From positions 1 through 26,277 of IMG/VR virus record IMGVR_UViG_3300044547_000441: a stretch of 26,277 nucleotides of DNA; one strand, written 5' to 3'. A model generated the notes under the pieces. It saw only the letters and a program-made list of their open reading frames with translations, searched no databases and was not told the origin of the DNA. Below are positions 5,708 through 17,757 of this stretch, piece by piece (within the stretch, counting starts at the first letter, position 1; every line of letters begins with the position of its first letter). A program made the translations under genes and the position numbers. Origin of the DNA: a virus.

Positions 5708-6267
5708 TAGAATTCTCCATAAGACCATGAAACAAGACTATAGCGAACACCCGACTCAACTGGGTCTACTTTGTGTTGAACGTAGGATGGAAACAAAATA
5801 ACATCTCCTGCAGCAAACGGGAAACTATATCTACCACCCTTATACCACAATGCCAGTTTCCCACCAGTAAAGTCATCATTGAGGAGTGTTATGCATGATA
5901 GTTTGCGAACAGGTTTTGTGTTCAAGTCAGCAACATCTGCATTCCATATGGTATCTGTGTGTTGTTCAAATTTGCCACCACTGTCGTATTGAATAAAATG
6001 ATTCTCTTTAGAGTACTGTGAAATGTTAATCTTAAAGTAATTCTCATTCGCAAACTTAGATATTTCACGAATTTTTTCAACTACAGGATTATTGTGATTA
6101 ACATTGACTTGGGTTGATTCGCGAGAGTTTTTATCATAAGCATTGTTGTTTGCGCGACTTACACCACTTTCTATTAGTGGTTTTTGGGTTTGGTTTTCGA
6201 TGAATGCTGAGAGATCTTTGATTGCATCCCGAAACACAATGGCATTCTGTAATACATCAAACTTCAT
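5707..6267 (-). CDS. 2-oxoglutarate/Fe(II)-dependent oxygenase (prolyl 4-hydroxylase-like)
   Basis: This 186-residue double-stranded beta-helix protein has the iron triad His103-x-Asp105 (KFEQHTDTIW) and His165 (YVQHKVDPV). Arg175 (GVRYSLV) is in place to bind 2-oxoglutarate. The order HxD...H...R with GGKLALWY and GDVILFP matches the P4H-like 2OG-Fe(II) family, very common in marine T4-like phages. The family hydroxylates protein side chains or small molecules. The target here is not known. The start at 6267 is set by the ATGA overlap with the dCMP deaminase stop. The longer frame to 6321 would read through that gene. Confidence 0.88.
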   Translation of the reverse strand: MKFDVLQNAIVFRDAIKDLSAFIENQTQKPLIESGVSRANNNAYDKNSRESTQVNVNHNNPVVEKIREISKFANENYFKINISQYSKENHFIQYDSGGKFEQHTDTIWNADVADLNTKPVRKLSCITLLNDDFTGGKLALWYKGGRYSFPFAAGDVILFPSYVQHKVDPVESGVRYSLVSWSYGEF

Positions 6268-6683
6268 ACCAGTTTCAATTCCACACCTGCCTCTTGGAAC
6301 ATGGTTTTTGTAATATCCCAATTGAATCCTGTACCATCCCGTTCAGGAGTATACGCAACAACCTTCTTTATGCCACGCTGAATTATGCTCTTGGCACATT
6401 CATTGCAGGGTAAGAGTGCAACATACATCGTGCACCCCTCTACTGAATGTGGAGAGTTGTCTAATGCATTTCGTTCGGCATGCGCAACAAACAGATGCTT
6501 CGTGGGTCTATCCCTGTAACGGAATGGATCATCCTCGACACCACGTGGGAATCCATTGTATCCAACAGAGAGAATACGATTACGGTCATCTACAATGACA
6601 CAACCCACCTTGGTGCTTGGGTCATAAGACCAAGATGAGATGTGGTCTGCGAGTTCCATGAATCGCTTGTCCCACTTATTCAT
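6264..6683 (-). CDS. cd: dCMP deaminase
   Basis: The 139-residue protein has the zinc-dependent cytidine/deoxycytidylate deaminase signature: HAE (68-70) with catalytic Glu70, and PCNEC with Cys93 and Cys96 as zinc ligands. The surrounding text (DPSTKVGCVIVD, GYNGFPRGV, THKL-like FVAHAERNAL) is typical of T4-like dCMP deaminases. It converts dCMP to dUMP and so feeds thymidylate synthesis for phage DNA. It is coupled by ATGA to both neighbours and works in the same pathway as the ribonucleotide reductase genes at the right of the window. Length is normal for the family. Confidence 0.95.
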   Translation of the reverse strand: MNKWDKRFMELADHISSWSYDPSTKVGCVIVDDRNRILSVGYNGFPRGVEDDPFRYRDRPTKHLFVAHAERNALDNSPHSVEGCTMYVALLPCNECAKSIIQRGIKKVVAYTPERDGTGFNWDITKTMFQEAGVELKLV

Positions 6684-7096
6684 TTCAATTTTACTGCTTG
6701 CACAATACGCTCGCGCAGAATCGACGAACTGTAATCATGCTTCCTGGCAAGAAATTTAATTGGAATGTCCAATCCATAACCAGTATAATCGGTGCGACCA
6801 TAGTAATCATCACCGAGGAATCGAACATCCCAATCATAACCAGTCAGCAGGTTCAGTAGATCTGCTTCTGTATCATATGGAATTATCTGATCAACATACT
6901 TACATGCATTGACCTGAACATAACGTTCAAACAAATTCTGCACAGGTTTGTTCTTCTCAGGGCGATCAAGAGTAGGGTCAGACTGCAGTGCTACTACAAG
7001 TCGATCACAATTCTCTTTTGCTTCATATAATGCCAAGACATGTCCTGCATGAAACAAGTCAAAACAACTGGCAATAACACCCACACGTTCAGTCAT
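6680..7096 (-). CDS. Cytidylyltransferase-like nucleotidyltransferase (TagD-like)
   Basis: This 138-residue HIGH-superfamily nucleotidyltransferase starts MTERVGVIASCFDLFHAGHV, with the HxGH ATP/CTP-binding motif at residues 16-19. A late YSSSILRERI segment corresponds to the (I)STSxL loop. Length and pattern fit glycerol-3-phosphate or related cytidylyltransferases (TagD, RfaE C-terminal domain), which make CDP- or ADP-activated alcohols and sugars. The substrate cannot be told from sequence. It may supply an activated precursor for the glycan-type genes in this window (inference). The start is ATG 7096, overlapping the upstream gene by 8 nt. Confidence 0.88.
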   Translation of the reverse strand: MTERVGVIASCFDLFHAGHVLALYEAKENCDRLVVALQSDPTLDRPEKNKPVQNLFERYVQVNACKYVDQIIPYDTEADLLNLLTGYDWDVRFLGDDYYGRTDYTGYGLDIPIKFLARKHDYSSSILRERIVQAVKLK

Positions 7097-7301
7097 AATT
7101 TACACCCTCGTCCTGCTTACGACCCATGTAGTGGTCATCGCTTACGCAATGAAACTGTGCCTGAATCTGACTGTTGATAATAGTCCGAGTGACATCACCC
7201 GCGAACTTTTCACATTGCTCTTTGCTGGCAGTCTCATAGACATCCTTCGCTACGAACTCGCCCTCAGCAGTGAACAGGAATACAATCAACCAATAACTCA
7301 T
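7089..7301 (-). CDS. Conserved T4-like phage hypothetical protein, 70 aa
   Basis: This 70-residue protein begins MSYWLIVFLFTAEGEFVAKD, with a short hydrophobic N-terminus and two cysteines (Cys29 and Cys52, in KEQCEKF and FHCVSDDHY) that could pair if exported. The pattern 'FTAEGEF...KEQCEKFAG...HCVSDDHY' looks like a conserved small phage protein family of unknown function. It is coupled by ATGA to the membrane protein upstream and overlaps the cytidylyltransferase. Confidence 0.72.
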   Translation of the reverse strand: MSYWLIVFLFTAEGEFVAKDVYETASKEQCEKFAGDVTRTIINSQIQAQFHCVSDDHYMGRKQDEGVNYD

Positions 7302-7531
7302 ACTACAACTCCCACAAGTAGAATACCAACCACAAACGCATTGACTGCGATCAATGCCTTATCCTTCATGGCAATACCAGCCCATCCCCAGAGACCAGCA
7401 CCAGCGATAGAGATCAACAGATCTGCCGTGTGATAATCAAACGCACGACAAGTCGCTGCGACGATGACACATGCGGTGCCAGACCACTTCACGATTTCGA
7501 GAAAATTATTCTTTGTCTTATCTTCAGTCAT
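7298..7531 (-). CDS. Small membrane protein, 77 aa
   Basis: After a short polar N-terminus (MTEDKTKNNFLEIVKW) the protein has three hydrophobic segments (SGTACVIVAATCRAF, LLISIAGAGLWGWAGIAM, LIAVNAFVVGILLVGVVV). It is likely an inner-membrane protein of unknown function. The start is placed at 7531, not 7591, because AAGGAT lies about 8 nt upstream of this ATG and the preceding gene ends 10 nt before it. Confidence 0.78.
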   Translation of the reverse strand: MTEDKTKNNFLEIVKWSGTACVIVAATCRAFDYHTADLLISIAGAGLWGWAGIAMKDKALIAVNAFVVGILLVGVVV

Positions 7532-7962: not shown

Positions 7963-8736
7963 TCATATTAACTCGTCTGCAAGTTTGATCAATTTTGGAT
8001 AGAAAATTGTAAAGACTTCCCTTACCTCGTCGGCATTTATGATTTGCTCATATGGATCGAGGGGTAATTGCTTTTCCTTGAAAATACCAAATGCCGACTC
8101 CTTCTCAAAGTCAGAGAGGTGTTCCGCCATGGAAACGAGAGAATCGTACTCAACAGTGTCATAGGAAACAAGTTTGTTCATAACTTTTTTGTTTTGTTCT
8201 TCTAGCAGGTAGCGTGAGATTATTTGCAACTTGAGTTCTTCGATATCAATATGCAACATCATTGTATTCTTCTCGCAATTGAATATAAAACTCTTTTTTG
8301 CAAACATAAAACTCAGCATCTTTTGTTCGAAACCACGATTTACGTAGATAAAGTGGAATCCAATATCTTTTAGATAATTCAATCCCTCTTGAAATCCTTT
8401 GAAAGAAAGAGTGTCATCCAGGAAAATGCGACAGGTCATTGCTTGCTCTTGCCCTGCCTTGGAAACCAACTCAAATCTTTCGTTATTTTTAGAATATAGT
8501 TCTCGGTGAGTGATTACACCAGTAGGTTCAAGATAGAGTTTATTGTCTTTTAATGTGAGCGTATTGAACAATGCTGTGTGCACTGCAAGTATCTCTTGCA
8601 ACGAAACAACATCATCAAACTTTTTGCTTAAAGAATAATTGACGAAGGATTCAGTCAATTGAGTCCCAGATCTGGGAACACCTAGAATGGCATATCTATT
8701 GTGCGATAGATTCCATGGCAAAGACTCTTGTATCAT
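7963..8736 (-). CDS. Sulfotransferase-like P-loop protein, 257 aa
   Basis: The N-terminal segment NRYAILGVPRSGTQLTESFV contains GVPRSGT at about residues 19-25. It matches the 5'-phosphosulfate (PSB) loop of PAPS-dependent sulfotransferases. A later strand-helix region (FHFIYVNRGFEQKMLSFMF) could correspond to the 3'-phosphate-binding part, with an Asn-Arg in place of the usual Arg-Asp. Such enzymes transfer sulfate from PAPS to sugars, peptides or small molecules. The start at 8736 comes 2 nt after the upstream stop. An open frame to 8817 reads through the upstream gene. It is the last gene of the coupled biosynthetic operon, and the acceptor is unknown. Confidence 0.78.
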   Translation of the reverse strand: MIQESLPWNLSHNRYAILGVPRSGTQLTESFVNYSLSKKFDDVVSLQEILAVHTALFNTLTLKDNKLYLEPTGVITHRELYSKNNERFELVSKAGQEQAMTCRIFLDDTLSFKGFQEGLNYLKDIGFHFIYVNRGFEQKMLSFMFAKKSFIFNCEKNTMMLHIDIEELKLQIISRYLLEEQNKKVMNKLVSYDTVEYDSLVSMAEHLSDFEKESAFGIFKEKQLPLDPYEQIINADEVREVFTIFYPKLIKLADELI

Positions 8737-8738
8737 GT

Positions 8739-9374
8739 TTAGTAAACTCTCATTTTTCTGACTAGTCGATTCATCGTATCTTCGGTCGCGCTCACATTCA
8801 ACACTAGCATGGTGCATCCATCAACATATGAAAATAGCGAGTGCGCCTTGGTCGTATTCATGAAATATGTGATACCTTCTTTTAGTTCAACAACCTTACC
8901 ATCAAACACCCAAGTCATATTCGATGCATGAAAATTGTAGAACGGTATGATGATTCTAAACATGTCATTGGGCCGACCGAAGTTGTGATCTCTGTGCGGT
9001 GGAAAGAATCCGCCCTTGTCTAATCGCAGGAAATGCGATCGAGAAAGATCTGCGCCGAAGAAATCGCAGAGTTCCGCGATAGCAGGTATCTCATATGAGA
9101 GCGGAGTTCTGACTTTGAAGTCTCTATCATAATAGAGTTCTTTTGTATGCACGTAGTATTCCATCAGACTTTCTAGGTCGGGAACACCCGAGTATCCACC
9201 ATCCAAACTGGTAATGGATAACCCATATCGATTATACCCATCTTTATACGAATTATATTGCCTCCAACCTGGATGGTTTAGAATGAGATCTTTGTATGCA
9301 TTTACATCGACCGTATCAAACCCCAGTTCTATTAAATCTCCATATGAGACGACAAATTCAGTAAGCGGATTCAT
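8739..9374 (-). CDS. Aspartyl/asparaginyl beta-hydroxylase-like dioxygenase, 211 aa
   Basis: The segment LRLDKGGFFPPHRDHNFG carries the HxD iron ligands (His127, Asp129) and KAHSLFS the distal His178. Arg140 (MFRIIIPFYN) matches the co-substrate arginine of the AspH group. Together these point to the cupin-type Asp/Asn beta-hydroxylase family, which hydroxylates side chains using 2-oxoglutarate, Fe(II) and O2. I do not see the usual Arg about ten residues after the distal His (here CTML), which is a mild oddity. The ATG at 9374 directly abuts the upstream TAG stop. Its substrate is likely the product of neighbouring enzymes in this operon (inference). Confidence 0.82.
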   Translation of the reverse strand: MNPLTEFVVSYGDLIELGFDTVDVNAYKDLILNHPGWRQYNSYKDGYNRYGLSITSLDGGYSGVPDLESLMEYYVHTKELYYDRDFKVRTPLSYEIPAIAELCDFFGADLSRSHFLRLDKGGFFPPHRDHNFGRPNDMFRIIIPFYNFHASNMTWVFDGKVVELKEGITYFMNTTKAHSLFSYVDGCTMLVLNVSATEDTMNRLVRKMRVY

Positions 9375-10046
9375 CTAATTGACTCCTGGATCAATTTTAC
9401 CGAGTTGATCAAATGCCCACTGTCTTTCGTGACAATGATAACACTTATTGCATCGACCTGCATCTAGTTGCGTGCAGGAGTGCGATAACTCTAGTAGTCG
9501 TTCTGTGTTGAACATGAAGTGTAAATCTATTGTGTGAGATTTATAGAGATCGTTAAATGGTAAACTTATAATCTCTGGATATGGATTTTCCGATACCCGA
9601 AATGGATTGGCTGTCTCATCCATTTCAAACGGCCAAGGTTGTGGTACTGCTCTTTGGTCTGCTAAGAAAATATGGAAGGATTCGAACGTAGGATCGTACT
9701 TAGCGAAAACTGCTCGAACACTTTCGCTAATTTGTTTGGAGTGATGTAAATCTTGCACATTTTCTGCGCCGAAGATTATTGGTTGCGGTAGGTTGATGTC
9801 AAGTTTTTGGTTTATCCAATCCACGATACCTGCACTATGCAGTTCTGCGCCATCTGTTTTCGGGACAGTAAAAATATATTTAATCTCGTCGACAGACCGT
9901 CCAGTTTGCATCAACTCAAGACACAGCAGATACAGCAATATTGCACTGTCAGCACCACTGCTCAGCATTATGCCAATGCTTTTGTTCTCAGGGATCTTTA
10001 ATTCAAACGAATCTAGATTGTTATCTGGTCCACATGTAATTATCAT
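9375..10046 (-). CDS. QueC-like PP-loop ATPase, 223 aa
   Basis: The N-terminal SIGIMLSSGADSAILLYLL contains the N-type ATP-pyrophosphatase loop (SSGADS, 29-34, a variant of SGGxDS). The C-terminus has a zinc site Cys191-x7-Cys199-x2-Cys202-x2-Cys205 like that of QueC. QueC makes the nitrile preQ0, and relatives amidate or adenylate carboxylates. No other queuosine genes are visible here, so a role in activating a carboxylate in a dedicated pathway is at least as likely (inference). The start is ATG 10046, with GGAG 6 nt upstream and an ATGA overlap. The TTG codon at 10058 is less likely. Confidence 0.82.
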   Translation of the reverse strand: MIITCGPDNNLDSFELKIPENKSIGIMLSSGADSAILLYLLCLELMQTGRSVDEIKYIFTVPKTDGAELHSAGIVDWINQKLDINLPQPIIFGAENVQDLHHSKQISESVRAVFAKYDPTFESFHIFLADQRAVPQPWPFEMDETANPFRVSENPYPEIISLPFNDLYKSHTIDLHFMFNTERLLELSHSCTQLDAGRCNKCYHCHERQWAFDQLGKIDPGVN

Positions 10047-11644
10047 GTATTGCTCCAATTAAGTTTTTGTTTCTTATAATCTTCAATAAACTCCACCTTT
10101 GTTTGCACAGGTGGGCGGATGCCACCCAAGTCGCGATATGATCCCAACATTTCCTGATCAGTTTTACCAGCAACATACCACTCGTCCATTCTCCAATGAT
10201 CTACACCATAGTCCATATAATCATCTTTACCCCATACATTGTTTGCAATCCACAACAATGCACTTTTCTCTGTCATTCCCGTGTTACTTTTCCAATGATG
10301 GATCAACACAGTTGGTTTAAGAGTGCGAACAAACATATTGATATAATGTTTCAATTCAGGAACAATACTATTGCTCTGTGATATTCGCTTTAAATCTGGA
10401 TGAGAGTCATCTAACGCAATCTCTTGCATATCCACAAGACTATATCCTTGTTGTTTATATGTCGAGGACAATGTACTTTGTTTAACATTATTGTGAGTGC
10501 TTGCTATAATCAATGGGGCGAATACTAAATGGTTCGTTCTCCAGTGTTCATCACACCACTTCTTGGAGTCATTAAGTGTTTCTTCCGTTTCATGCGACAA
10601 CCCTGCAATAAGACTAATCGTTCCTCTGTAATATCCATTGTGCTTCATGAAGTAATCTTTGGTGTCAAGAATTGCTTGCTGAATCTTAGCAGGTTCCATT
10701 CCTTTACCGATAGCAGCAGCACTGGGACGATTGAAAGACTCAACTCCATAAAAATGCCCATTAAACTGCATACGAGCAAGATGCTCAATATCCTGCGGTC
10801 TAGTATGCAATAAGTCTGCTCGGATGTATCCACCAAAATTTGGTTTAAAAGGTAGAGTTTCTACTGCATCTGCATACTTTATAATCTTTTCGCTGTGATC
10901 ATTGAACGTTTCGTCTGAGATAGAATAGCGATAGATACCATAATTATCATAGTTCCGCATAAGATTGTCGCGGAAATCATCGGAGCATCTAGTATGATCA
11001 TCTTTTACGCCTAGAATACTGTATGTGCAAAAAGAGCATTTGAATCTACACCCCCGACTTGTCTCCATTGTGACAGATTCGAATGATTGTAGGAAATCTC
11101 TTTTCTCATAATCAATAGAAAGATTGCGCATTGGATATGCAGGATATTCTTTAAGCGCATGCACAGTTCTGCGCGTGTTACCTTCCTTGTCGATAACTTC
11201 TTCGGTATATTTTGCAGTTCCAGATAGAATTTCCAGGATAGCGAGTTCGCCATATCCTACTACCATATAATCTACGGGAATGAAATGGAGATTGTAGAAA
11301 TCAGTCGATCCCGTTACCACCAACACATCTGGATAAGTTTGCTTCAACCAAGCGAATGATCTGTATAAAGTCTCGGTATTCATATTGAACACTGCTCCGA
11401 GACCAACAAACTTCATTGCTGGTGTCATTCTTGAACGAATCAACTCTTGAAATTCTTCGAATTTCCAAGATGGAGCAAAGTCTATGACTTCAATGTCGAA
11501 CCCATGTTGACGTAAAAACGAGGCAATTCTATGAGAACCTGCGCTTCTGTGAACAGAACTGTAACTTATTCCAGCAAAATCCTGTGGTCGCATGGGTTCA
11601 TCTGAATTGATCATTCCGCCAAAAATTAGACCATCCAACGCCAT
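10043..11644 (-). CDS. B12-binding-domain radical SAM enzyme, 533 aa
   Basis: Residues about 28-165 form a cobalamin-binding-like Rossmann region (GSHRIASFLRQHGFDIEVID, FVGLGAVFNMNT, DVLVVTGS, MVVGYGE). The radical SAM core follows with Cys199-x3-Cys203-x2-Cys206 (SRGCRFKCSFC), the 4Fe-4S ligands. The order and the wording 'VTMETSRGCRFKCSFC' fit class B radical SAM proteins, which typically methylate unactivated carbons or perform complex rearrangements. The C-terminal 200 residues are unassigned. No other gene here reveals the substrate. The gene sits mid-operon, joined by TAATG to the gene upstream and ATGA to the PP-loop gene downstream, so the proteins are probably made in matched amounts. 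Confidence 0.93.
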   Translation of the reverse strand: MALDGLIFGGMINSDEPMRPQDFAGISYSSVHRSAGSHRIASFLRQHGFDIEVIDFAPSWKFEEFQELIRSRMTPAMKFVGLGAVFNMNTETLYRSFAWLKQTYPDVLVVTGSTDFYNLHFIPVDYMVVGYGELAILEILSGTAKYTEEVIDKEGNTRRTVHALKEYPAYPMRNLSIDYEKRDFLQSFESVTMETSRGCRFKCSFCTYSILGVKDDHTRCSDDFRDNLMRNYDNYGIYRYSISDETFNDHSEKIIKYADAVETLPFKPNFGGYIRADLLHTRPQDIEHLARMQFNGHFYGVESFNRPSAAAIGKGMEPAKIQQAILDTKDYFMKHNGYYRGTISLIAGLSHETEETLNDSKKWCDEHWRTNHLVFAPLIIASTHNNVKQSTLSSTYKQQGYSLVDMQEIALDDSHPDLKRISQSNSIVPELKHYINMFVRTLKPTVLIHHWKSNTGMTEKSALLWIANNVWGKDDYMDYGVDHWRMDEWYVAGKTDQEMLGSYRDLGGIRPPVQTKVEFIEDYKKQKLNWSNT

Positions 11645-12273
11645 TAATCAACCCATTCCAAACTTTTTAAATTCGCATATAATTGATCTTTATAAGAAGG
11701 ATCCCACAAATGGTATATGATCCACTGTTTTACGTGATTCAATTTAATCGGAGAATGATACGGTACAGTTGGAGAGATTTTTCTATCTTTTCTCGCCCAC
11801 CACTGACCATTCTCGTCACAAAAAGATGTTTTGAAATTGGCAGGATCATTAATTTTATTATATCCATCGACAAATCGTTTATTATATTCGTTCATCGAGA
11901 TAAAAAACCCTGCCATGCCATTTTCTCTGGCAACTTCAAAGGTAAAGTCCTTAATGTCACCATGTATTGCATAACAATTAATACCTATATTTTGCACAGT
12001 ATAACTACGAGATCCCATGCATACCATTCTATCTATTTCTGATGCATAAAATCCCTGCCCGCAAATAATTCTTCCATCTTTTTTGTATATCACATAACCA
12101 TTTGCAGGTCCATCAAATCTTTTCTCCTTGTATAGAAGATGGAGTAGAGTATGTGGTTTATTTTCCCAATCAATAAAATCCATGTTAGCAGCACCCTCTC
12201 GTGGATCATCCTGAGACTCTCTGCAAAATTCCAATATTTCTTCTATCGGGTAACTACTGTCAATCCGAATCAT
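11644..12273 (-). CDS. Unassigned operon protein, possibly GNAT-like, 209 aa
   Basis: I do not recognise this protein with confidence. The middle part (ANGYVIYKKDGRIICGQGFYASE, then IGINCYAIHG and FEVARENGMAGFFISMNEYN) has the strand pattern of a GNAT N-acetyltransferase core. The C-terminus is aromatic-rich (WIIYHLWDPSYKDQLYANL). No clear acetyl-CoA pyrophosphate loop (Q/RxxGxG/A) is evident. It is embedded between the Coq4-like and radical SAM genes with a 4-nt ATGA overlap upstream and a 1-nt TAATG junction downstream, so it almost certainly belongs to the same pathway. Confidence 0.75.
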   Translation of the reverse strand: MIRIDSSYPIEEILEFCRESQDDPREGAANMDFIDWENKPHTLLHLLYKEKRFDGPANGYVIYKKDGRIICGQGFYASEIDRMVCMGSRSYTVQNIGINCYAIHGDIKDFTFEVARENGMAGFFISMNEYNKRFVDGYNKINDPANFKTSFCDENGQWWARKDRKISPTVPYHSPIKLNHVKQWIIYHLWDPSYKDQLYANLKSLEWVD

Positions 12274-12911
12274 AGACCCAACCGTGTTCTTGCTGCGATT
12301 AAATCCTCACTAAGTAGCAAATCATAATTCTCTGCAAGTAAGAACTTGGCATTCTTTCCTCGTAGATATGCTTGTTTGACCATAGAGATAATTTCAGGTT
12401 TAAAGATACCGTATTTGATCATAGCAAGCAAACATATCATCAACCAACCAAGCGACCTTGTCTGTGCAAACGAAAACATTGCGAGACACATTTCACCGAT
12501 TTCAACTGCAGGATAACCTGTCAACGTATGCCAAGTGTCATGTGTGTCGCGATACCTGCGTGCCATCCAATTATATGGATGCTTCGCTTCGATCCATTTG
12601 CTGTTATTTGATTTTCTTCTGCTAAATTTCAGCAGAGTTTGTTGATTTGGAAATAGTTTGTGGCATTCTCTGCCAACAGAACCTTCTGGTCTTTCGGAAA
12701 GTGTCGAGAAGTAATCTGAAACCTCTTCGGAATTGTATGCTATTTCTCCGCCAGATTCAGTTTCTAATAACTTGTTGAAACTCCAACGCAATGATGGAGG
12801 ATTTAATGCATGTAGAATCTCAAATATAAAGATTGTATTTGATACGTTTTTGCGTAGTTTCTTCGCGGCATTATATGCACGACGATAGTCAATTTTGTAT
12901 TCTAGATTCAT
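12270..12911 (-). CDS. Coq4-family protein, 213 aa
   Basis: The segment RRYRDTHDTWHTLTGYPAVE contains His124-Asp125-x2-His128, and Glu140 lies exactly 11 residues after His128. This is the HDxxHx11E metal signature of Coq4. The N-terminal part (SNTIFIFEILHAL ... SVGRECHKLFPNQQ) also follows the Coq4 layout. Coq4 acts in ubiquinone biosynthesis and has been assigned a role in oxidative decarboxylation of the ring precursor. No other ubiquinone gene is present here. The family is unusual in a phage and may act on another prenyl- or ring-containing substrate with the adjacent radical SAM enzyme (inference). It overlaps the glycosyltransferase gene by 23 nt and the next gene by ATGA. Confidence 0.85.
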   Translation of the reverse strand: MNLEYKIDYRRAYNAAKKLRKNVSNTIFIFEILHALNPPSLRWSFNKLLETESGGEIAYNSEEVSDYFSTLSERPEGSVGRECHKLFPNQQTLLKFSRRKSNNSKWIEAKHPYNWMARRYRDTHDTWHTLTGYPAVEIGEMCLAMFSFAQTRSLGWLMICLLAMIKYGIFKPEIISMVKQAYLRGKNAKFLLAENYDLLLSEDLIAARTRLGL

Positions 12912-13647
12912 TTACAATAACCTTTAATTCACGAAGAACCTTTTTTATTTCATTCGAATTATTTAAAAATTCGTGGAAATTACCATCCTCTTCTAAGTCA
13001 TAGACATAAAGATGTTCATCTGTTAAAATAAATTTTATGTCTGGATTATAATATAATTTATATGCTGCAACTACATCTTCTGAACCGACAAAAGTTTCAT
13101 CGAAATTAAAAGCATTGACAAGTTTGTTAGAATACAACAGCATTCGAGTTTGTTCTAGATTTGATGCTAGAAATTTACCAAGTTCGATTAATCGCAATCC
13201 ATGCGCACCTCTGGCATTTGCGAATTTGTATATTTCACTACTCTCAAAAAACTTTCTACCAGTCGTTGTGATACCATTATATGTCATACATCCACCTGTA
13301 AGACCAATAACATCAACATCTAGATTTTGTTGAACGATCGCGGCAATCTTAGATAATGCATCAGGAGCAAGATAATCATCCGCATCGATTTGCATGTAAT
13401 ACGCATGCGAACGAGATCGGAAAATCTCTAGAACAGAGTTTTTTCCTTTCGCTGGTGTGCCATTAGATTCAGTTACTAGAAACTCCAGATTGTATGCCTC
13501 TGCGACAGATCTCGCTTGCTCTACAAATGAAAAATCGAGAGTGTTGCATACCACAACCACATCACTGGTTTGAGGCAGAACACTCTCGATACATCTCTTT
13601 AATTTTTCAACATCCTTCGAAGTAAGGACTGCAACCAAAAGATTCAT
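12889..13647 (-). CDS. Glycosyltransferase family 2-like, 252 aa
   Basis: This GT-A fold protein starts MNLLVAVLTSKDVEKLKRCI, has VVVCNTLD as the second strand, and has Asp88-Ala-Asp90-Asp91 (MQIDADDYLAPDAL) as the nucleotide-sugar/metal-binding DXD site. A GS-ED segment (VGSEDVVAAYKL) resembles the acceptor-side ED motif. Family 2 enzymes transfer sugars from UDP-, GDP- or dTDP-sugars to glycans, lipids or proteins. The start overlaps the FmdB-like gene by ATGA, and the end overlaps Coq4 by 23 nt. It is shorter than many GT2 proteins but the catalytic core is complete. The acceptor is unknown. Confidence 0.87.
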   Translation of the reverse strand: MNLLVAVLTSKDVEKLKRCIESVLPQTSDVVVVCNTLDFSFVEQARSVAEAYNLEFLVTESNGTPAKGKNSVLEIFRSRSHAYYMQIDADDYLAPDALSKIAAIVQQNLDVDVIGLTGGCMTYNGITTTGRKFFESSEIYKFANARGAHGLRLIELGKFLASNLEQTRMLLYSNKLVNAFNFDETFVGSEDVVAAYKLYYNPDIKFILTDEHLYVYDLEEDGNFHEFLNNSNEIKKVLRELKVIVNESRIQN

Positions 13648-13961
13648 CCGATCAATGAACCTCCTGCTTTTTTCCTGATTCTATCTACTGCATCACGAGT
13701 CTTCACATCCTTGGTGGACTTAGAACCATATTCCTGTGCCAATGCAGAATTGGGATTGGCATCAGCGACGCGAGACATGACTTCCTTGAAGTGATCAGGA
13801 ACCTTACCGCCACCATCAGAACCAGGAGCATGCAAGAAGTTAATCTTCTTGTATAGAATTTTAACTGTTCCATCATCTGTGAGTGTTTTCATGTCATCAT
13901 ATGACATGGTCTGTTCCCACTCATCACCTGTTTCTGTGTTTATAAAATCATATACTGGCAT
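13644..13961 (-). CDS. FmdB-like phage protein, 105 aa
   Basis: The N-terminus MPVYDFINTETGDEWEQTMS follows the FmdB-type 'MPxYxFxCxxCGxxxE' start, but the zinc cysteines are replaced (Asn/Thr/Gly), so no zinc site remains. Such proteins are common in T4-like marine phages, with unknown role. The C-terminal half is basic and helical (KSTKDVKTRDAVDRIRKKAGG), and a GSDGGGK stretch lies in the middle. The ATG at 13961 has AAGG about 10 nt upstream. It is the first gene of the biosynthetic operon and may or may not be functionally part of it. A TATAAT at 13988-13983 lies upstream but has no good -35. Confidence 0.78.
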   Translation of the reverse strand: MPVYDFINTETGDEWEQTMSYDDMKTLTDDGTVKILYKKINFLHAPGSDGGGKVPDHFKEVMSRVADANPNSALAQEYGSKSTKDVKTRDAVDRIRKKAGGSLIG

Positions 13962-14015
13962 CGGTAAACCTTTTTTGTTATCATTATAATACTTATAAGT
14001 GGTAACCTCAGAGAC

Positions 14016-14091
14016 TGGTGGACACTCTGGGGCTCGAACCCAGGACCTACAGGTTAAAAGCCCGTTGCTCTACCTACTGAGCTAAGTGTCC
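14016..14091 (-). tRNA. tRNA-Lys (anticodon UUU), CCA encoded
   Basis: The cloverleaf has acceptor GGACACT/AGTGTCC, D-arm AGCTCAGTAGGTAGAGC, anticodon loop CTTTTAA with anticodon TTT, T-arm with GGTTCGAGCC, discriminator A and an encoded CCA (14018-14016). It is 76 nt and the last tRNA of the array in transcription order. Confidence 0.97.
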
Positions 14092-14099
14092 GTTAAACT

Positions 14100-14297
14100 T
14101 TAGAGATAGATCCGAGTACCGTCGGAATCTACAGGGAAACCAAGTACACGACGTTCGATGTAGTATTCATCGATAAAATGATCACCGTCGCGAGTATACA
14201 CGCTATGGGCATTCCGTGCTTCTTCTTCAGATGCATAAACACCCAACAGCAACGAACCTTCGTAATCAAACTCACCTAATAATGCAAAAACTTCCAT
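14100..14297 (-). CDS. Hypothetical protein, 65 aa
   Basis: This small protein begins MEVFALLGEFDYEGSLLLGV, with the segment YASEEEARNAHSVY and C-terminal DSDGTRIYL. The pattern looks like a small phage-type beta-alpha-beta domain but I cannot name it. AAAGGAA lies 7 nt before the ATG at 14297, and the frame open to 14327 is just the promoter leader. It lies between tRNA-Lys and a terminator/promoter pair, so it is transcribed from the promoter at 14326-14354 together with tRNA-Lys. Confidence 0.76.
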   Translation of the reverse strand: MEVFALLGEFDYEGSLLLGVYASEEEARNAHSVYTRDGDHFIDEYYIERRVLGFPVDSDGTRIYL

Positions 14298-14325
14298 AAT
14301 CATTTCCTTTCTCATCTTATATTCC

Positions 14326-14354
14326 ACTCTACCCTAAAAATGAGAAAATGTCAA
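14326..14354 (-). promoter_or_regulatory. Sigma70-type promoter TTGACA-17-TAGAGT with shared leader
   Basis: The -35 box TTGACA (14354-14349) and -10 box TAGAGT (14331-14326) are separated by 17 nt. Its spacer (TTTTCTCATTTTTAGGG) is the same as that of the promoter at 7900-7928, and the leader is near-identical. It sits directly behind the terminator at 14364-14399, restarting transcription for the 65-aa gene and tRNA-Lys. Confidence 0.85.
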
Positions 14355-14363
14355 GCCCTAAAA

Positions 14364-14399
14364 TAAAAAAAGTACCAAGTTTTTTTCTTGGCACTTTTT
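14364..14399 (-). terminator. Rho-independent terminator after tRNA-Ser
   Basis: On the minus strand, GTGCCAAG (14394-14387) pairs with CTTGGTAC (14379-14372) around an A-rich 7-nt loop, followed by seven T residues. Flanking A and T runs extend the stem. It ends the transcript containing tRNA-Ser and most of the tRNA array. The flanking A/T runs make it potentially bidirectional. Confidence 0.85.
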
Positions 14400-14401
14400 C
14401 A

Positions 14402-14489
<88 letters not shown>

Positions 14490-14496
14490 TATTTAA

Positions 14497-14679
14497 TTAC
14501 TTTGGTTTTTCATTTTCGCCAAGAGCAGGTTCTGCTGCAGGTTCTACTGCTTCAGCGGCAGCAAGTGCTTCATCTGCTGCTGGACCAGCGGCTTCTGATA
14601 CAGTTGGTGTTTCCTCGCTGGGAGTACACGCTGCGGTAAGTGCAATAACTGCTGCTGCCATAAAAGTCTTGATATTCAT
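14497..14679 (-). CDS. Small secreted lipoprotein, 60 aa, inside the tRNA array
   Basis: The protein starts MNIKTFMAAAVIALTAAC, a typical signal peptide ending in a lipobox-like LTAAC with Cys18 as the candidate lipidated residue (Thr at -3 is slightly unusual). The mature part is Ala/Glu/Pro-rich and unstructured-looking, ending GENEKPK. AAGGAATTAATT precedes ATG at 14679. A frame open to 14796 would run through tRNA-Gly and is rejected. It lies between tRNA-Gly and tRNA-Ser. Such phage lipoproteins may act at the outer membrane in superinfection exclusion or lysis (inference). No family is identified. Confidence 0.8.
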   Translation of the reverse strand: MNIKTFMAAAVIALTAACTPSEETPTVSEAAGPAADEALAAAEAVEPAAEPALGENEKPK

Positions 14680-14703
14680 AATTAATTCCTTGGTTGTTAA
14701 ATG

Positions 14704-14720
14704 GTACCCGAATTGGGTAA
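14704..14720 (-). other. Small hairpin next to the tRNA-Gly 3' end
   Basis: The sequence TACCC-GAATT-GGGTA (about 14705-14719) can form a 5-bp hairpin immediately 3' of the CCA end of tRNA-Gly and upstream of the lipoprotein gene. It has no T run, so it is not an obvious terminator. It may guide 3' processing of the tRNA or protect the end. Called only on symmetry. Confidence 0.4.
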
Positions 14721-14794
14721 TGGAGCGGATAGTGAGACTCAAACTCACCTCTTTAGCTTGGAAGGCTAAGGCACAATCTCTATACCATACCCGC
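14721..14794 (-). tRNA. tRNA-Gly (anticodon UCC), CCA encoded
   Basis: This is a 74-nt cloverleaf with acceptor GCGGGTA/TATCCGC (one G-U pair), anticodon stem TTAGC/GCTAA around loop CTTCCAA (anticodon TCC), T-arm GTGAGTTTGAGTCTCAC, discriminator T and an encoded CCA. Confidence 0.96.
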
Positions 14795-14808
14795 ATTAAA
14801 CTTATTTA

Positions 14809-14893
14809 TGGTGGGAAGGTGAGGTATCGATCCTCCCCCGAAAACGGATGAGATTTACAGTCTCACTGCCAGAGCCACTGACTTTACCTTCCC
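14809..14893 (-). tRNA. tRNA-Tyr (anticodon GUA), CCA encoded
   Basis: This is an 85-nt type II tRNA with acceptor GGGAAGG/CCTTCCC, anticodon stem TGAGA/TCTCA around CTGTAAA (anticodon GTA), a long variable arm, discriminator A and an encoded CCA. An ATAAATAA box begins at the last base of the CCA end (14809-14802). Confidence 0.95.
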
Positions 14894-14898
14894 TTAAA

Positions 14899-14981
14899 TG
14901 GTACGCCTAGAGGGACTCGAACCCCCACGCTTTCGCACTGGTACCTAAAACCAGCGTGTCTACCAATTCCACCATAGGCGC
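14899..14981 (-). tRNA. tRNA-Leu (anticodon UAG), CCA encoded
   Basis: This is an 83-nt type II tRNA with D-arm TGGTGGAATTGGTAGACA, anticodon stem CTGGT/ACCAG around TTTAGGT (anticodon TAG), a variable arm, T-arm GGTTCGAGTCC, discriminator A and CCA. The first acceptor pair is G-U. Confidence 0.95.
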
Positions 14982-14991
14982 ATAAAAGAGT

Positions 14992-15102
14992 GACCACCTA
15001 AGTGTGCCTTGATTGCTTACTTCGCGACGTTGCAATCTTCCCAGATAAAGAATACGGTTGCAACCGTATTTTTACCCCTTCACGGGTTCAGCATAGGTGG
15101 TC
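14992..15102 (-). ncRNA. Unassigned structured RNA in the tRNA array, 111 nt
   Basis: The 126-nt gap between tRNA-Leu and tRNA-Asn is closed by a perfect 9-bp stem (GACCACCTA at 15102-15094 with TAGGTGGTC at 15000-14992). It encloses three hairpins on the minus strand. The first is ACCC/GGGT with loop GTGAAG (15087-15074). The second is the 20-nt palindrome AATACGGTTGCAACCGTATT (15070-15051), whose hexanucleotide loop TTGCAA is self-complementary. The third is GATTGC/GCAATC (15037-15011). It has no T-loop, no anticodon and no encoded CCA, and no open frame with a ribosome site, so it is not a tRNA or a gene. Its place recalls the stable non-tRNA RNAs C and D of the T4 tRNA cluster. It matches no ribozyme or riboswitch motif I can recall. 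Strand is inferred from the flanking tRNAs. Confidence 0.7.
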
Positions 15103-15117
15103 TATTCGTATTCAAAC

Positions 15118-15192
15118 TGGCTCCCTAAGATGGATTCGAACCACCGACCAATTGATTAACAGTCAACTGCGCTACCGCTGCGCCATTAGGGA
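15118..15192 (-). tRNA. tRNA-Asn (anticodon GUU), CCA encoded
   Basis: This is a 75-nt cloverleaf with acceptor TCCCTAA/TTAGGGA, D-arm GGCGCAGCGGTAGCGC, anticodon loop CTGTTAA (anticodon GTT), T-arm GGTTCGAATCC, discriminator G and an encoded CCA. Confidence 0.97.
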
Positions 15193-15199
15193 ATAAAAC

Positions 15200-15275
<76 letters not shown>

Positions 15276-15280
15276 AAATC

Positions 15281-15355
15281 TGGCGAAGGTGGTAGGAATT
15301 GAACCTACTTCTCAAGGTTTTGGAGACCTGCGGATTACCGTTTTCCCTCACCGAC
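15281..15355 (-). tRNA. tRNA-Trp-like (anticodon CCA), degenerate acceptor stem
   Basis: The 3' half is canonical: anticodon loop CTCCAAA (anticodon CCA), T-arm GTAGG-TTCAATT-CCTAC, 3' strand CACCTTC, discriminator G and CCA. The 5' half is not. GTCGGTG pairs with CACCTTC at only five of seven positions, position 8 is A instead of the nearly invariant T, and the anticodon stem has a C-T mismatch at its base. The upstream AAG-TC-GGTG would pair if two bases (TC) were removed. It may be a decayed tRNA or one needing unusual processing. Confidence 0.7.
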
Positions 15356-15367
15356 TTATAAACTTAT

Positions 15368-15763
15368 TTATTCTTCCAACCACTTCTTGATAGAACCATA
15401 CTTGAGATCGAGACGATACTCAAGAGATTCCCAACCATAGAAGCGCATTTCTTCATCATCAATGCCTTCTGCTTCACAGATAATGGCGACTGCTGCCGCA
15501 TTATCAAAGCAGTTCTTGACCAACCCCATGATACCGTCTACACGGCAAACGAACTCAGAGAAGTTACGATCCTGACGAATCTTGTCTTCATCGATCTGCT
15601 CCGAGAGTTTCCCCACGAGACGCTCATACTCAGCATCAAACTCTTCAGCTGAAGAGAAGGTGATGCCACGAGGACGGAAACCATACACATCTTTGTGCAG
15701 GTCTGAAAAGATGTCGCCATCGCGGCTATTGGTAGCGACATTAATATCAGCAAGAGTCAACAT
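15368..15763 (-). CDS. Conserved phage protein with HKDVYGFRPR motif, 131 aa
   Basis: This acidic soluble protein of 131 residues has the N-terminal block DLHKDVYGFRPRG, then FSSAEEFDAEYERLV. I recall this from many phage-encoded hypothetical proteins. No enzymatic motif is visible. The start is ATG 15763 behind AAAGGAAG. The TTG two codons upstream is rejected. It is the first gene behind the promoter at 15795-15823 and immediately precedes the tRNA array, so the tRNAs may be cotranscribed with it. Its stop codon overlaps an ATAAATAA box. Confidence 0.8.
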   Translation of the reverse strand: MLTLADINVATNSRDGDIFSDLHKDVYGFRPRGITFSSAEEFDAEYERLVGKLSEQIDEDKIRQDRNFSEFVCRVDGIMGLVKNCFDNAAAVAIICEAEGIDDEEMRFYGWESLEYRLDLKYGSIKKWLEE

Positions 15764-15794
15764 AATCAAACTTCCTTTTCACATCTTATATTCC

Positions 15795-15823
15795 AATATA
15801 CCCTAAAATGTAATAAAAGTCAA
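15795..15823 (-). promoter_or_regulatory. Sigma70-type promoter TTGACT-17-TATATT ahead of the tRNA array
   Basis: The -35 box TTGACT (15823-15818) and -10 box TATATT (15800-15795) have a 17-nt spacer ending TTTTAGGG. The leader AATATAAGATGTGAAAAGGA matches the leaders at 7868-7899 and 14297-14325 closely. It drives the 131-aa gene and probably the tRNA array up to the terminator at 14364-14399. Confidence 0.85.
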
Positions 15824-15846
15824 GCCCTAATTTTGTTTTTTTAAAA

Positions 15847-16350
15847 TTAATTTCGTGGACGATATGGGTCATATTTCATACCCCACAACCAACCTCCTGG
15901 TAATATGAAAGTCAGAGGGTCAACAAGGTGGCATTTACCATTCGGTTCAACACACCACTTGCGACGTCTCATACTTGCCTTGATTGCCATGAGTCGGCGA
16001 GTTTCCCAAGTATGCCTCCTAGCATACATCGGATTACCATCTCGTCGCCTAGTCCCCCGCATGGTTCGACTTATCGATGCTTTATGCTCTGGTGATAGTC
16101 CGCCCCAGTTTGGATTCTTTTCGCCAGTTAGTGCTTCTGAAATCTTTTTACGAGTTTCCGGAGTATGCCCTGCAGATTTCTTTCTGGTAACTTTATCGAC
16201 AAGCGTCAAACCTTTTCCGAGAACTTCTGCTTTATCTCGGAGGATTTCTATCTTGCTGTTTTGTAGCAAGAGTTCTCTTGGTTTCGGAACCTTGTTTGGA
16301 TTATTGACAATCCACAGTTCTTTCTTATGTTGAAATAGAAAGAACCTCAT
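15847..16350 (-). CDS. NUMOD3-type DNA-binding protein (homing-endonuclease remnant?), 167 aa
   Basis: The centre (about 57-125) contains NUMOD3-like repeats: GHTPETRKKISEAL followed by GEKNPNWGG, then LSPEHKASISRTMRGTRRR with DGNPMYARR and ETRRLMAIKAS. These modules give sequence-specific DNA binding to phage GIY-YIG and HNH homing endonucleases. A C-terminal KWCVEPNGKCHLVDP segment is also found in such proteins. No GIY-YIG, HNH or PD-(D/E)xK catalytic motif is visible in the N-terminal 56 residues. It may therefore be a nuclease-less remnant or a DNA-binding protein in its own right. AAAGGAACGG precedes ATG 16350, which overlaps speD by 26 nt. Confidence 0.8.
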   Translation of the reverse strand: MRFFLFQHKKELWIVNNPNKVPKPRELLLQNSKIEILRDKAEVLGKGLTLVDKVTRKKSAGHTPETRKKISEALTGEKNPNWGGLSPEHKASISRTMRGTRRRDGNPMYARRHTWETRRLMAIKASMRRRKWCVEPNGKCHLVDPLTFILPGGWLWGMKYDPYRPRN

Positions 16351-16735
16351 TCACCGTTCCTTTATCCAGTAGTGTCAGATTATGCTCTCTGTCAATATAT
16401 GTAAATTCCACATGTCGTGGTTCAAATTCCTCCAGAGCAGCGAATACATCAGCAGTATTAAGAGCACTGCAGGTATACACATCCAGTTGCATGAGAGCAG
16501 GAGAAACCTCATCCCAAACATGCATAGCAATGTGCGATGTTTCGATAATGGTAACTGCAGTCAAACCACGATTACCAACCATGTCACTGTAAACAGCATA
16601 TGGACCCATTAGTATCTTCATACCAATTTTATCAACCAGAGTCTTCATCCAATCTTGGATTGCCTCTGCACATTGTGGCGGATTGTTAAGTTCTGCTCGC
16701 ACAATGAGATGCTTGTGCTCTAAAATTGCTCCCAT
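16325..16735 (-). CDS. speD: S-adenosylmethionine decarboxylase-like protein, SpeD type
   Basis: The 136-residue protein has the SpeD core AVTIIETSHIAMHVWDE and LDVYTCS. Ser67 (the pyruvoyl-forming serine), His68, His72 and Cys89 align with the cleavage and catalytic residues of prokaryotic AdoMet decarboxylases. The residue before Ser67 is Thr rather than the usual Glu, a change I recall in other phage SpeD proteins, which may alter self-cleavage. The enzyme would decarboxylate AdoMet for spermidine synthesis, which could help condense DNA or stabilise ribosomes. The start is ATG 16735 with AAGGAA 6 nt upstream. The TTG codon before it is rejected. A TATAAATA late-type box lies upstream. Confidence 0.87.
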   Translation of the reverse strand: MGAILEHKHLIVRAELNNPPQCAEAIQDWMKTLVDKIGMKILMGPYAVYSDMVGNRGLTAVTIIETSHIAMHVWDEVSPALMQLDVYTCSALNTADVFAALEEFEPRHVEFTYIDREHNLTLLDKGTVNEVLSIST

Positions 16736-16764
16736 CAAATTTCCTTACTTCTTTCACGGAAATA

Positions 16765-16773
16765 TTATTTATA
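16765..16773 (-). promoter_or_regulatory. T4-late-type -10 box TATAAATA upstream of speD
   Basis: The minus strand reads TATAAATAA at 16773-16765, a perfect match to the T4 late -10 element. A +1 about six bases further leaves a leader of roughly 20 nt containing AAGGAAA before the speD ATG at 16735. The box overlaps the stop codon of the sulfotransferase gene, so chance from coding sequence is possible. Confidence 0.6.
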
Positions 16774-17757
16774 TGGGTTCCACCATATGCTGTTTATAAA
16801 CTCCTGACCAAAACGGTCGACTGCAAAGTCGTAGTTTTCGCGCATAAATGGATAACTATCATATAATTCACGTTTCTCTTCATCACTAAATTCTGGATGT
16901 TCACCAAAACTCCAAATCTTACGGGAAAAATTTATTTTATCAGGGGGTATCCATATTTTATCAATAATTTCTTTACTGAAACGAGAAACTGCATCAGCAT
17001 AATTTTCCTGCTTAAACGGATATAATGTTAGCAATTCTGCAATTTGACTCTCGTTCAGTTGCAAACTCAAACCTATGTTGGTGGGTTCTACAGTACCAGT
17101 ATATGGTAGTTCTAGATACGAGAAAAAATTAGAAAAAGATTCATTCGTGAACAATGTTTCATAGAAATTAAAATGAATTTTCCCGAACACTTCAGTAACA
17201 TTATCTACTGTTTCTCTCCACGAGAGAGAACTTTCCTCGAAGTCAGGTCTTCCTGACTCCAGTATGTCTGCCACTGACTCTGGAGTTTCACCTGGAGTGT
17301 TGGTTATCAGTTGATTTATATACCAAGATTTAACGTCATCCATAGAATTGACCGACCCCGTAGAATCAAATTCTGGGATTCTGTTTATTGTCATCTTCAT
17401 CATTGTATGTGATATGACTTGCGAGAGAGGATCTCTTAGTGTCATAACGGGCAGAACGTTAAGTCCAACATTATCTGCATTAGTTTTAAACCAGCGAAGT
17501 TGTTCTTTTGTGGCGTGTGCGTTTGTAGGCGAGAGATCACCAGTTAATGTAACATGCTCGTCATTTGCCAATAGTGCCATGTTCTCGAAGTATTTTGTTT
17601 TATCAAAACATTCTGGACCCGATACTATGTTGTGATCTTGAAAGATAAAAATCTCTTTTTGCGTTGGAAAATTACAGTCGGTTCTTCTGCTTAACTCCCC
17701 ATGCAACCACGTGCTTCCTGCTCTCGCGTTTCCGAAATATAGAAGAAAGTTTTTCAT
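16765..17757 (-). CDS. Sulfotransferase with duplicated C-terminal repeat, 330 aa
   Basis: The N-terminus MKNFLLYFGNARAGSTWLHG carries the PAPS 5'-phosphosulfate loop (GNARAGST), and PVMTLRDPLSQVISH (104-117) the 3'-phosphate-binding Arg/Ser motif. The catalytic domain is thus complete (about 1-225). The last 100 residues hold two copies of a 32-residue unit, about 241-272 and 297-328, each ending in YPF..ENY..AV.RF..E.I..IW. Sulfate would be moved from host PAPS to a glycan or small molecule. The repeats may bind the acceptor (inference). It is the second sulfotransferase of the window, and the two are not close in sequence. ATG 17757 has only a weak AAAGTTAG upstream. Confidence 0.88.
   Translation of the reverse strand: MKNFLLYFGNARAGSTWLHGELSRRTDCNFPTQKEIFIFQDHNIVSGPECFDKTKYFENMALLANDEHVTLTGDLSPTNAHATKEQLRWFKTNADNVGLNVLPVMTLRDPLSQVISHTMMKMTINRIPEFDSTGSVNSMDDVKSWYINQLITNTPGETPESVADILESGRPDFEESSLSWRETVDNVTEVFGKIHFNFYETLFTNESFSNFFSYLELPYTGTVEPTNIGLSLQLNESQIAELLTLYPFKQENYADAVSRFSKEIIDKIWIPPDKINFSRKIWSFGEHPEFSDEEKRELYDSYPFMRENYDFAVDRFGQEFINSIWWNPYK

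Follow-up and report, generated by a model that had tools for sequence, protein, structure and literature searches.

The window analysed here is the whole 26,277-nt stretch of the IMG/VR virus record IMGVR_UViG_3300044547_000441, in which nearly all of the main open reading frames (ORFs) lie on the minus strand. Between positions 7963 and 13647 it carries seven intact minus-strand genes, each overlapping or abutting the next, which encode in the direction of reading a family 2 glycosyltransferase-like protein (GT2), a Coq4-like protein, a GNAT-fold protein, a B12-binding-type radical S-adenosylmethionine (SAM) enzyme, a QueC-like ATPase, an AspH-like 2-oxoglutarate (2OG) oxygenase and a sulfotransferase-like protein. 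Judging from sequence comparison and a modelled fold, these genes could well be a set of phage-encoded enzymes that together make an acylated glycoconjugate, a reading that we hold with about even confidence.

Organization of the operon

A preliminary description of this DNA had listed eight ORFs, the seven together with an upstream FmdB-like gene, coupled through ATGA, TAATG or near-zero junctions. All eight were found to be present and co-directional without interruption, and the operon is real; two starts were corrected as judged by homologues, that of the QueC-like gene to the ATG at 10046 from an upstream TTG, and that of the sulfotransferase-like gene to the ATG at 8736 from 8817. The junctions are a 4-nt overlap (ATGA) between the FmdB-like and GT2 genes, a 23-nt overlap between GT2 and Coq4, a 4-nt overlap (ATGA) between Coq4 and GNAT, a 1-nt overlap (TAATG) between GNAT and radical SAM and a 4-nt overlap between radical SAM and QueC, followed by spacings of 0 nt (QueC/AspH) and 2 nt (AspH/sulfotransferase). 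The tight coupling is as had been described, but the same packing rules across the whole window: of 40 pairs of adjacent genes on the minus strand, about half overlap or touch. Therefore, the junctions are no special evidence for a pathway, and we rejected them as proof of one. In each comparison for which synonymous divergence (dS, 0.4–3.7) could be estimated, nonsynonymous divergence (dN, 0.05–0.60) was well below it, and the module genes therefore appear to be under purifying selection.

The core proteins

The GT2-like glycosyltransferase (12889..13647, 252 aa; this and the following module genes are on the minus strand) matches Pfam Glycos_transf_2 at 2.8e-8, and its D-x-D is conserved in the homologue alignment. 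The Coq4-like protein (12270..12911, 213 aa) matches Pfam Coq4 (PF05019) at 3.9e-11, with 43.1 bits against a curated cut-off of 22.9, and its HDxxHx11E metal motif (H124, D125, H128, E140) is invariant across six homologues. Its profile matches the solved Coq4-like protein Alr8543 at 5.3e-11; the solved Coq4-like proteins are far from the phage family, and the match spans about half of the length.

The third core gene (11644..12273, 209 aa) had been left unassigned in the preliminary description, which proposed a structure comparison. The AlphaFold model has a pLDDT (predicted local distance difference test) of 90.9, and its best Foldseek matches were the acyl-homoserine-lactone synthases BjaI (7.7e-7), MesI and RpaI, followed by acetyltransferases. 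At E ≤ 0.001 the search gave 155 matches in the PDB, of which the best 50 were all GNATs or LuxI-type synthases, and diverged members of the family reach Pfam GNAT models at 0.04–0.07. By its modelled fold, the protein is a GNAT-type acyltransferase. Assignment as a true LuxI has no support from sequence profiles: PF00765 (Autoind_synth) had no match among 18 members of the GNAT-fold family (a separate PF00765 scan was uninformative, as the control genomes gave no match either).

Alleles of the GNAT gene form two deeply split classes (100/100 support), and the neighbouring genes do not mirror this split. Between the window and the related contig L020, identity was 88% for Coq4 and 91% for QueC, whereas it was 45% for GNAT. 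Such an allele swap amid similar neighbours has the pattern of a chemically diversifying locus.

The tailoring-slot proteins

The radical SAM enzyme (10043..11644, 533 aa) matches Pfam Radical_SAM at 4.2e-7 (30.7 bits, cut-off 29.5) and Pfam B12-binding at 7e-6 (26.3 bits, below the cut-off of 32.1). The nearest NCBIfam models are B12-domain radical SAM families, every one far under its cut-off, the closest being TIGR04072, 'lipid biosynthesis B12-binding/radical SAM' (4e-13, well under its cut-off). Its CxxxCxxC (C199/C203/C206) is invariant in the alignment. The same protein matches the PADLOC candidate model PDC-M51A at 6.7e-14; a known defence system was discarded, PADLOC having given only this candidate radical SAM model and a QueC model (0.0018).

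The QueC-like PP-loop ATPase (9375..10046, 223 aa) matches Pfam QueC at 1e-4 and the QueC-like phrog_1550 at 1.2e-7, and its SSGADS and C-x7-C-x2-C-x2-C zinc site are invariant in four homologues. We call it QueC-like rather than QueC because the equivalog TIGR00364 was not reached (14.1 bits versus a cut-off of 150.3). The AspH-like 2OG-Fe(II) oxygenase (8739..9374, 211 aa) has no Pfam match and was assigned by its motif and by homology to a protein of Pelagibacter phage Mosig: the HRD and distal H are conserved across six homologues, and the profile matches Mosig_00081 (annotated Asp_Arg_Hydrox) at 5e-46. In the P-loop sulfotransferase-like protein (7963..8736, 257 aa), the GVPRSGT loop, previously proposed to bind 3′-phosphoadenosine 5′-phosphosulfate, is invariant in three homologues. 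The motifs that the preliminary description had called intact in the other proteins are likewise borne out by these alignments.

Distribution and gene order

Relatives were sought in collections by scans based on short conserved peptides, which miss distant homologues. The related contigs (L numbers) are metagenomic and mostly incomplete, which makes tests of absence weak; lineages were counted by hand as contigs differing in sequence and gene content, near-identical contigs counting as one. IMG/VR yielded 67 relatives of GT2, 60 of the Coq4-like protein, 20 of GNAT, 19 of the radical SAM enzyme and 13 of the QueC-like protein. A tblastn search of 50,697 deposited phages gave no match for radical SAM, Coq4, GNAT or QueC and a single match, in phage Mosig, for AspH; a distant GT2 relative also had no match there, the window GT2 and sulfotransferase not being among the queries. 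No relative of the radical SAM enzyme or GNAT was found in 84,980 GTDB genomes by a pattern scan, which is blind to distant homologues, and a bacterial source of the module is unsupported by that scan.

The order-conserved core is GT2-Coq4-GNAT, found in 12 lineages. The three genes are contiguous in 11 of these (the window, L002, L009, L010, L014, L020, L021, L043, L012, L161 and L163); L037, the twelfth, has an inserted gene for a SPASM radical SAM protein separating Coq4 from GNAT. The preliminary description had set the co-occurrence of at least four genes as the mark of a module, and nine lineages have four or more of the seven families within a single operon (the window, L002, L009, L010, L014, L020, L021, L037 and L161); the module is neither scattered as singletons nor decayed at its motifs. 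Therefore, a dedicated decoration or small-molecule pathway is well supported. As to its chemistry, an acyl or lipid component with a sugar fits better than the peptide that had also been considered. The module is conserved, yet homologues of Coq4-like, GNAT and GT2 also occur outside the full set. The FmdB-like small protein (13644..13961, minus strand, phrog_385 at 2.7e-11) had been counted with the module and is better treated as a neighbour: its gene lies upstream in the window, L010, L021 and L037 and downstream in L002 and L014.

What follows the core differs between lineages. The slots there hold the B12-radical SAM gene in the window, L002 and L010, a desaturase (in the slot of the window's B12-radical SAM gene) with a SPASM-like radical SAM gene in L020, a small radical SAM gene in L021 and L009, QueC then radical SAM in L014, an SDR-like gene with another AspH in L002 and L009, and an SGNH-like gene in L009, L043 and L163. 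In L161 they hold a methyltransferase, a sulfotransferase-like protein and an AMP-binding enzyme of the acyl-activating ANL superfamily (9195-10514, PF00501 at 2.8e-13), the methyltransferase and the AMP-binding enzyme both being inside the GT2-Coq4-GNAT module. No family match underlies the SGNH-like and SDR-like labels or several of the sulfotransferase-like ones, which were given on visual reading of the sequences. The sulfotransferase-like protein itself was recognized, by motif only, in the window, L014 and L020; of this ORF, L010 retains no more than a piece that matches the first 31 residues, which we read as a probable scar of its loss. In L007, the first radical SAM gene is about 20 kb from GT2-Coq4-GNAT, and an ATP-grasp-like gene is followed by a second, 638-aa B12-type radical SAM gene (13746-16598).

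Surroundings of the module

The window also encodes a class I ribonucleotide reductase, a glutaredoxin-like protein, a phage exonuclease and, near the module, a dCMP deaminase-like protein. The region immediately upstream of the module (14016-15275, minus strand) holds six tRNA genes (Lys, Ser, Gly, Leu, Asn, Thr), and there is a terminator-like hairpin at 14400-14366. An AdoMet decarboxylase (SpeD) gene (16325-16738, minus strand, AdoMet_dc at 1e-14) has counterparts near the module in many module-bearing contigs. No T4 late promoter was found directly before the operon; the T4-type late-promoter octamer TATAAATA has its sole copy in the window at 16766-16773 (minus strand), and four lineages (the window, L010:5287, L020:4490 and L037:4056) have TATAAATA upstream of the SpeD gene, at a distance of about 35-42 nt. 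A second sulfotransferase-like protein (16765-17757, minus strand, 330 aa) has a GNARAGST loop, matches Sulfotransfer_3 at only 0.11 and is kept in L020 at 72%.

Association with fatty-acid enzymes

Relatives of the GNAT gene were found beside genes for desaturases and ketoacyl synthases (KAS) in several arrangements: nrdA-desaturase-GNAT-nrdB (L024, L032), desaturase-GNAT (L029, with PF00487 at 8.9e-18, and L030), KAS-GNAT (L034), a desaturase within the module (L020), GT2-GNAT-desaturase (L157-L160) and GT2-KAS-desaturase-GNAT (L179/180, L183-L185). The ketoacyl synthases are FabF-like, and the L020 desaturase, which is without a Pfam match, is homologous to that of L024, which has one. In L167, a profile scan resolved a 458-aa ORF (5992-7368) into a GT2 domain (residues 4-255) followed by a GNAT domain (260-436), and this fused gene adjoins a desaturase gene. 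Therefore, GT2 and GNAT appear to serve a single product, one that involves an acyl chain. ORFs resembling the fusion are present in L166 and L168-L171, the GNAT domain having been checked by profile in L167 only.

Related genes near structural and host-recognition regions

In most of about 44 further T4-like contigs (L048-L090, L093), a Coq4-like gene (about 47-58% identical) lies between those for the terminase large subunit and the tail sheath. Those that cover the upstream region have a second operon just before gp13, in the order GT-sulfotransferase-like-desaturase-GNAT-sulfotransferase-2OG. A separate fold prediction for this GNAT (pLDDT 88) matched GNAT structures of the acetyltransferase kind. 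The second operon is close to the region from VrlC to gp14, which is termed the host recognition cluster in pelagimyophages (PMC7029224). The cultured phage Mosig has, directly after its AspH relative, a desaturase that belongs to the family of the L020 desaturase; a different GNAT and tail-fibre genes lie further along. Together with the frequent exchange of cassettes, the position of related operons near structural or tail-fibre genes suggests a function in the envelope or in host recognition.

Proposed pathway

The observations described above cover which genes are present and in what order, their intact motifs, selection on them, the predicted GNAT fold, the linkage with fatty-acid genes and the GT2-GNAT fusion; the acyl donor, acceptor, reaction order, product and role given here are inferred. 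GT2 would attach a sugar, and the GNAT-fold protein would acylate the acceptor at an amine or hydroxyl group. The donor is probably host acyl-acyl carrier protein or acyl-coenzyme A, since 12 contigs gave no PP-binding match and hence no acyl carrier protein of the phages' own. The Coq4-like protein may bind or process a lipid-bearing intermediate; human COQ4 is an oxidative decarboxylase in coenzyme Q synthesis (PMC11495197). Tailoring could then involve C-methylation or oxidation by the B12-radical SAM enzyme, hydroxylation by the AspH-like protein, ATP-dependent ligation or amidation by the QueC-like protein and sulfation by the sulfotransferase. The product would alter the envelope (lipopolysaccharide or glycolipid) of the infected cell, for example blocking other phages, or would decorate virions; modification of the infected-cell surface is the most likely role.

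An acylated glycoconjugate is preferred to a purely glycan or peptide target because of the linkage of GNAT to fatty-acid genes and the GT2-GNAT fusion. Several observations weigh against it. The Foldseek TM-scores of the GNAT-fold protein were only about 0.43-0.55, and its comparison with the LuxI-family profile was not significant (hhalign probability about 1%, E 0.055, with LuxI-family sequences taken from the PDB), so that specificity for a long acyl chain is drawn from the gene neighbours. Desaturase and KAS genes are missing from the window itself, and PF00487 had no match in any module-bearing contig tested; GNAT and desaturase genes insert at nrdA/nrdB, where neighbouring insertion can imitate a functional link. 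The sulfotransferase assignment is motif-based, since no Pfam, PHROG or NCBIfam model was significant. Finally, Coq4-like genes are found without GT2 and GNAT in many phages, and the protein may serve a separate job.

Alternative explanations

Many of the same data could be read as glycan or virion decoration that involves no lipid chemistry: the enzymes would glycosylate, acetylate, hydroxylate and sulfate either a structural protein of the phage or a polysaccharide on the host surface, with the GNAT as an ordinary acetyltransferase. GT2, GNAT, 2OG and sulfotransferase proteins are typical classes for tailoring glycans and proteins, tail-fibre or neck genes are close to both the second operon and the cluster in Mosig, the Coq4-like gene has its place between the terminase large subunit and tail sheath genes in many T4-like phages, and the GNAT family of the second operon resembles acetyltransferases. 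The recurring desaturase and KAS partners of GT2 and GNAT make little sense without an acyl chain, however, and we consider this explanation rather unlikely. The product might instead be a diffusible N-acyl signal or antimicrobial, made by a GNAT like the synthases of acyl-homoserine lactones or N-acyl-amino acids and tailored by the other enzymes. That the top Foldseek matches (BjaI, MesI, RpaI) are coenzyme A-dependent synthases of this kind, that an AdoMet decarboxylase gene is often nearby and that a lone KAS or desaturase may be paired with GNAT all agree with such a molecule; the failure of the LuxI and Autoind_synth models does not, and GT2, as the most constant partner of GNAT and fused to it, points to a sugar-bearing product. 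We judge a diffusible product to be quite improbable. It is also unlikely that there is no single pathway at all and that a hypervariable island has gathered unrelated auxiliary genes in operon-like order. T4-like aquatic phages do carry such islands (PMC7029224), and Coq4-like, GNAT, QueC-like and radical SAM genes are each also found apart from the full module; but GT2-Coq4-GNAT keeps its order in 12 lineages, a jumbo phage included, while the flanks change, and the GT2-GNAT fusion and recurring fatty-acid partners are non-random.

Two further explanations are disfavoured. Known phage systems for DNA modification include enzymes of the QueC-like, glycosyltransferase, GNAT (as in Mom), 2OG oxygenase and radical SAM classes, and the dCMP deaminase-like gene nearby would also suit hypermodification of DNA by a deazaguanine or a glycosylated or acylated base. 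This is very improbable: no TGT/DpdA-type transferase was found in nine related contigs, the T4-like contigs gave no member of the thymidylate synthase/dCMP-hydroxymethylase family (contigs incomplete in both cases), QueD was found only in the jumbo phage G016 and in none of the QueC-bearing contigs tested, and desaturase, KAS and sulfotransferase do not fit. That the Coq4-like gene is an auxiliary metabolic gene for ubiquinone, the other genes being incidental, we find hardly credible. Its Pfam score, intact metal motif and the role of human COQ4 (PMC11495197) speak for it, but no other ubiquinone gene was recognized in the neighbourhoods read, its partners are GT2 and GNAT, and the solved Coq4-like proteins are distant from those of the phages.

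Returning to the acylated glycoconjugate, the broader proposal is that aquatic T4-like and jumbo phages encode a modular pathway for a lipo-glycan, an acylated, hydroxylated and sulfated sugar that would be a chemically diversifying natural product of phages and would remodel the envelope of the infected cell or act in signalling. We offer it tentatively, by analogy with other systems and as something less probable than its opposite; 'aquatic' rests on likeness to aquatic T4-like phages rather than on sample records. To our knowledge, no lipo-glycan pathway of this kind has been described for a bacteriophage. In the papers and phage records searched, we found no description of such a biosynthetic pathway, and no paper that placed Coq4 among phage auxiliary metabolic genes or dealt with such a cluster. 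If the proposal is true, phages keep and reassort a pathway of several steps, swapping its acyl and tailoring parts as cassettes, which goes beyond single metabolic genes or borrowed O-antigen enzymes. It would also open a route to new lipid-sugar compounds, give the Coq4-like, QueC-like and B12-radical SAM families new functions outside known pathways and provide a testable explanation of 'hypothetical' islands in aquatic T4-like phages. The AspH-desaturase cluster of Mosig, with its GNAT, makes part of the idea testable now in a cultured phage.

Comparison with known systems

The QueC-like protein shares the PP-loop and the C4 zinc site with QueC (preQ0 synthase) and QueC-like defence proteins; it differs in its equivalog score, in the absence of QueD and TGT from the QueC-bearing contigs tested and in its acyl/glycan operon setting. 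LuxI-type synthases have a GNAT-related fold and are the nearest solved structures by Foldseek, whereas the phage protein lacks their sequence-profile and Autoind_synth matches. The bacterial ornithine-lipid pathway combines the N-acyltransferase OlsB with a 2OG hydroxylase of the OlsC/LpxO type, and so resembles the module in pairing an acyltransferase with an AspH/LpxO-family hydroxylase that acts on an acyl lipid. In contrast to that pathway, four related phages gave no match to the OlsB-type model Acetyltransf_5 (PF13444), OlsA was not seen, and the phage GT2, Coq4-like and sulfotransferase proteins have no counterpart in it.

The host recognition cluster of pelagimyophages and cyanomyophages (PMC7029224) is likewise a variable island of aquatic T4-like phages with many glycosyltransferases and radical SAM cassettes, and freshwater members carry speH, fabF, a stearoyl-CoA desaturase and a 2OG enzyme. 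The sections of that source consulted here list genes and do not describe a GT2-Coq4-GNAT core, an acyl-glycoconjugate logic or a QueC-like or B12-radical SAM module, and the window module, unlike that cluster, is not beside tail fibres.

Another parallel is the rhizobial toolkit for Nod factors (lipochitooligosaccharides), and here the likeness is one of functional classes, homology to Nod proteins not being shown. The phage loci always have GT2 and GNAT, with KAS or desaturase in relatives and outside the window; no single phage locus has GT2, acyltransferase, KAS and sulfotransferase all together, no NodB-type deacetylase or acyl carrier protein was found, and the module adds Coq4-like, B12-radical SAM, QueC-like and AspH-like proteins. 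In the rhizobial system, NodC is a GT2, NodA an N-acyltransferase, NodE a ketoacyl synthase and NodH a sulfotransferase, and a virus-borne analogy is provided by the algal virus EhV, which encodes glycosphingolipid synthesis. The functions of NodA and NodH are described in PMC4619719. As in that toolkit, GT2, GNAT-type acyltransferase, FabF-like KAS (in the phage relatives) and sulfotransferase classes recur together, and we read the seven genes as a probable acyl-glycoconjugate module with exchangeable tailoring enzymes that would work in the manner of such a toolkit.

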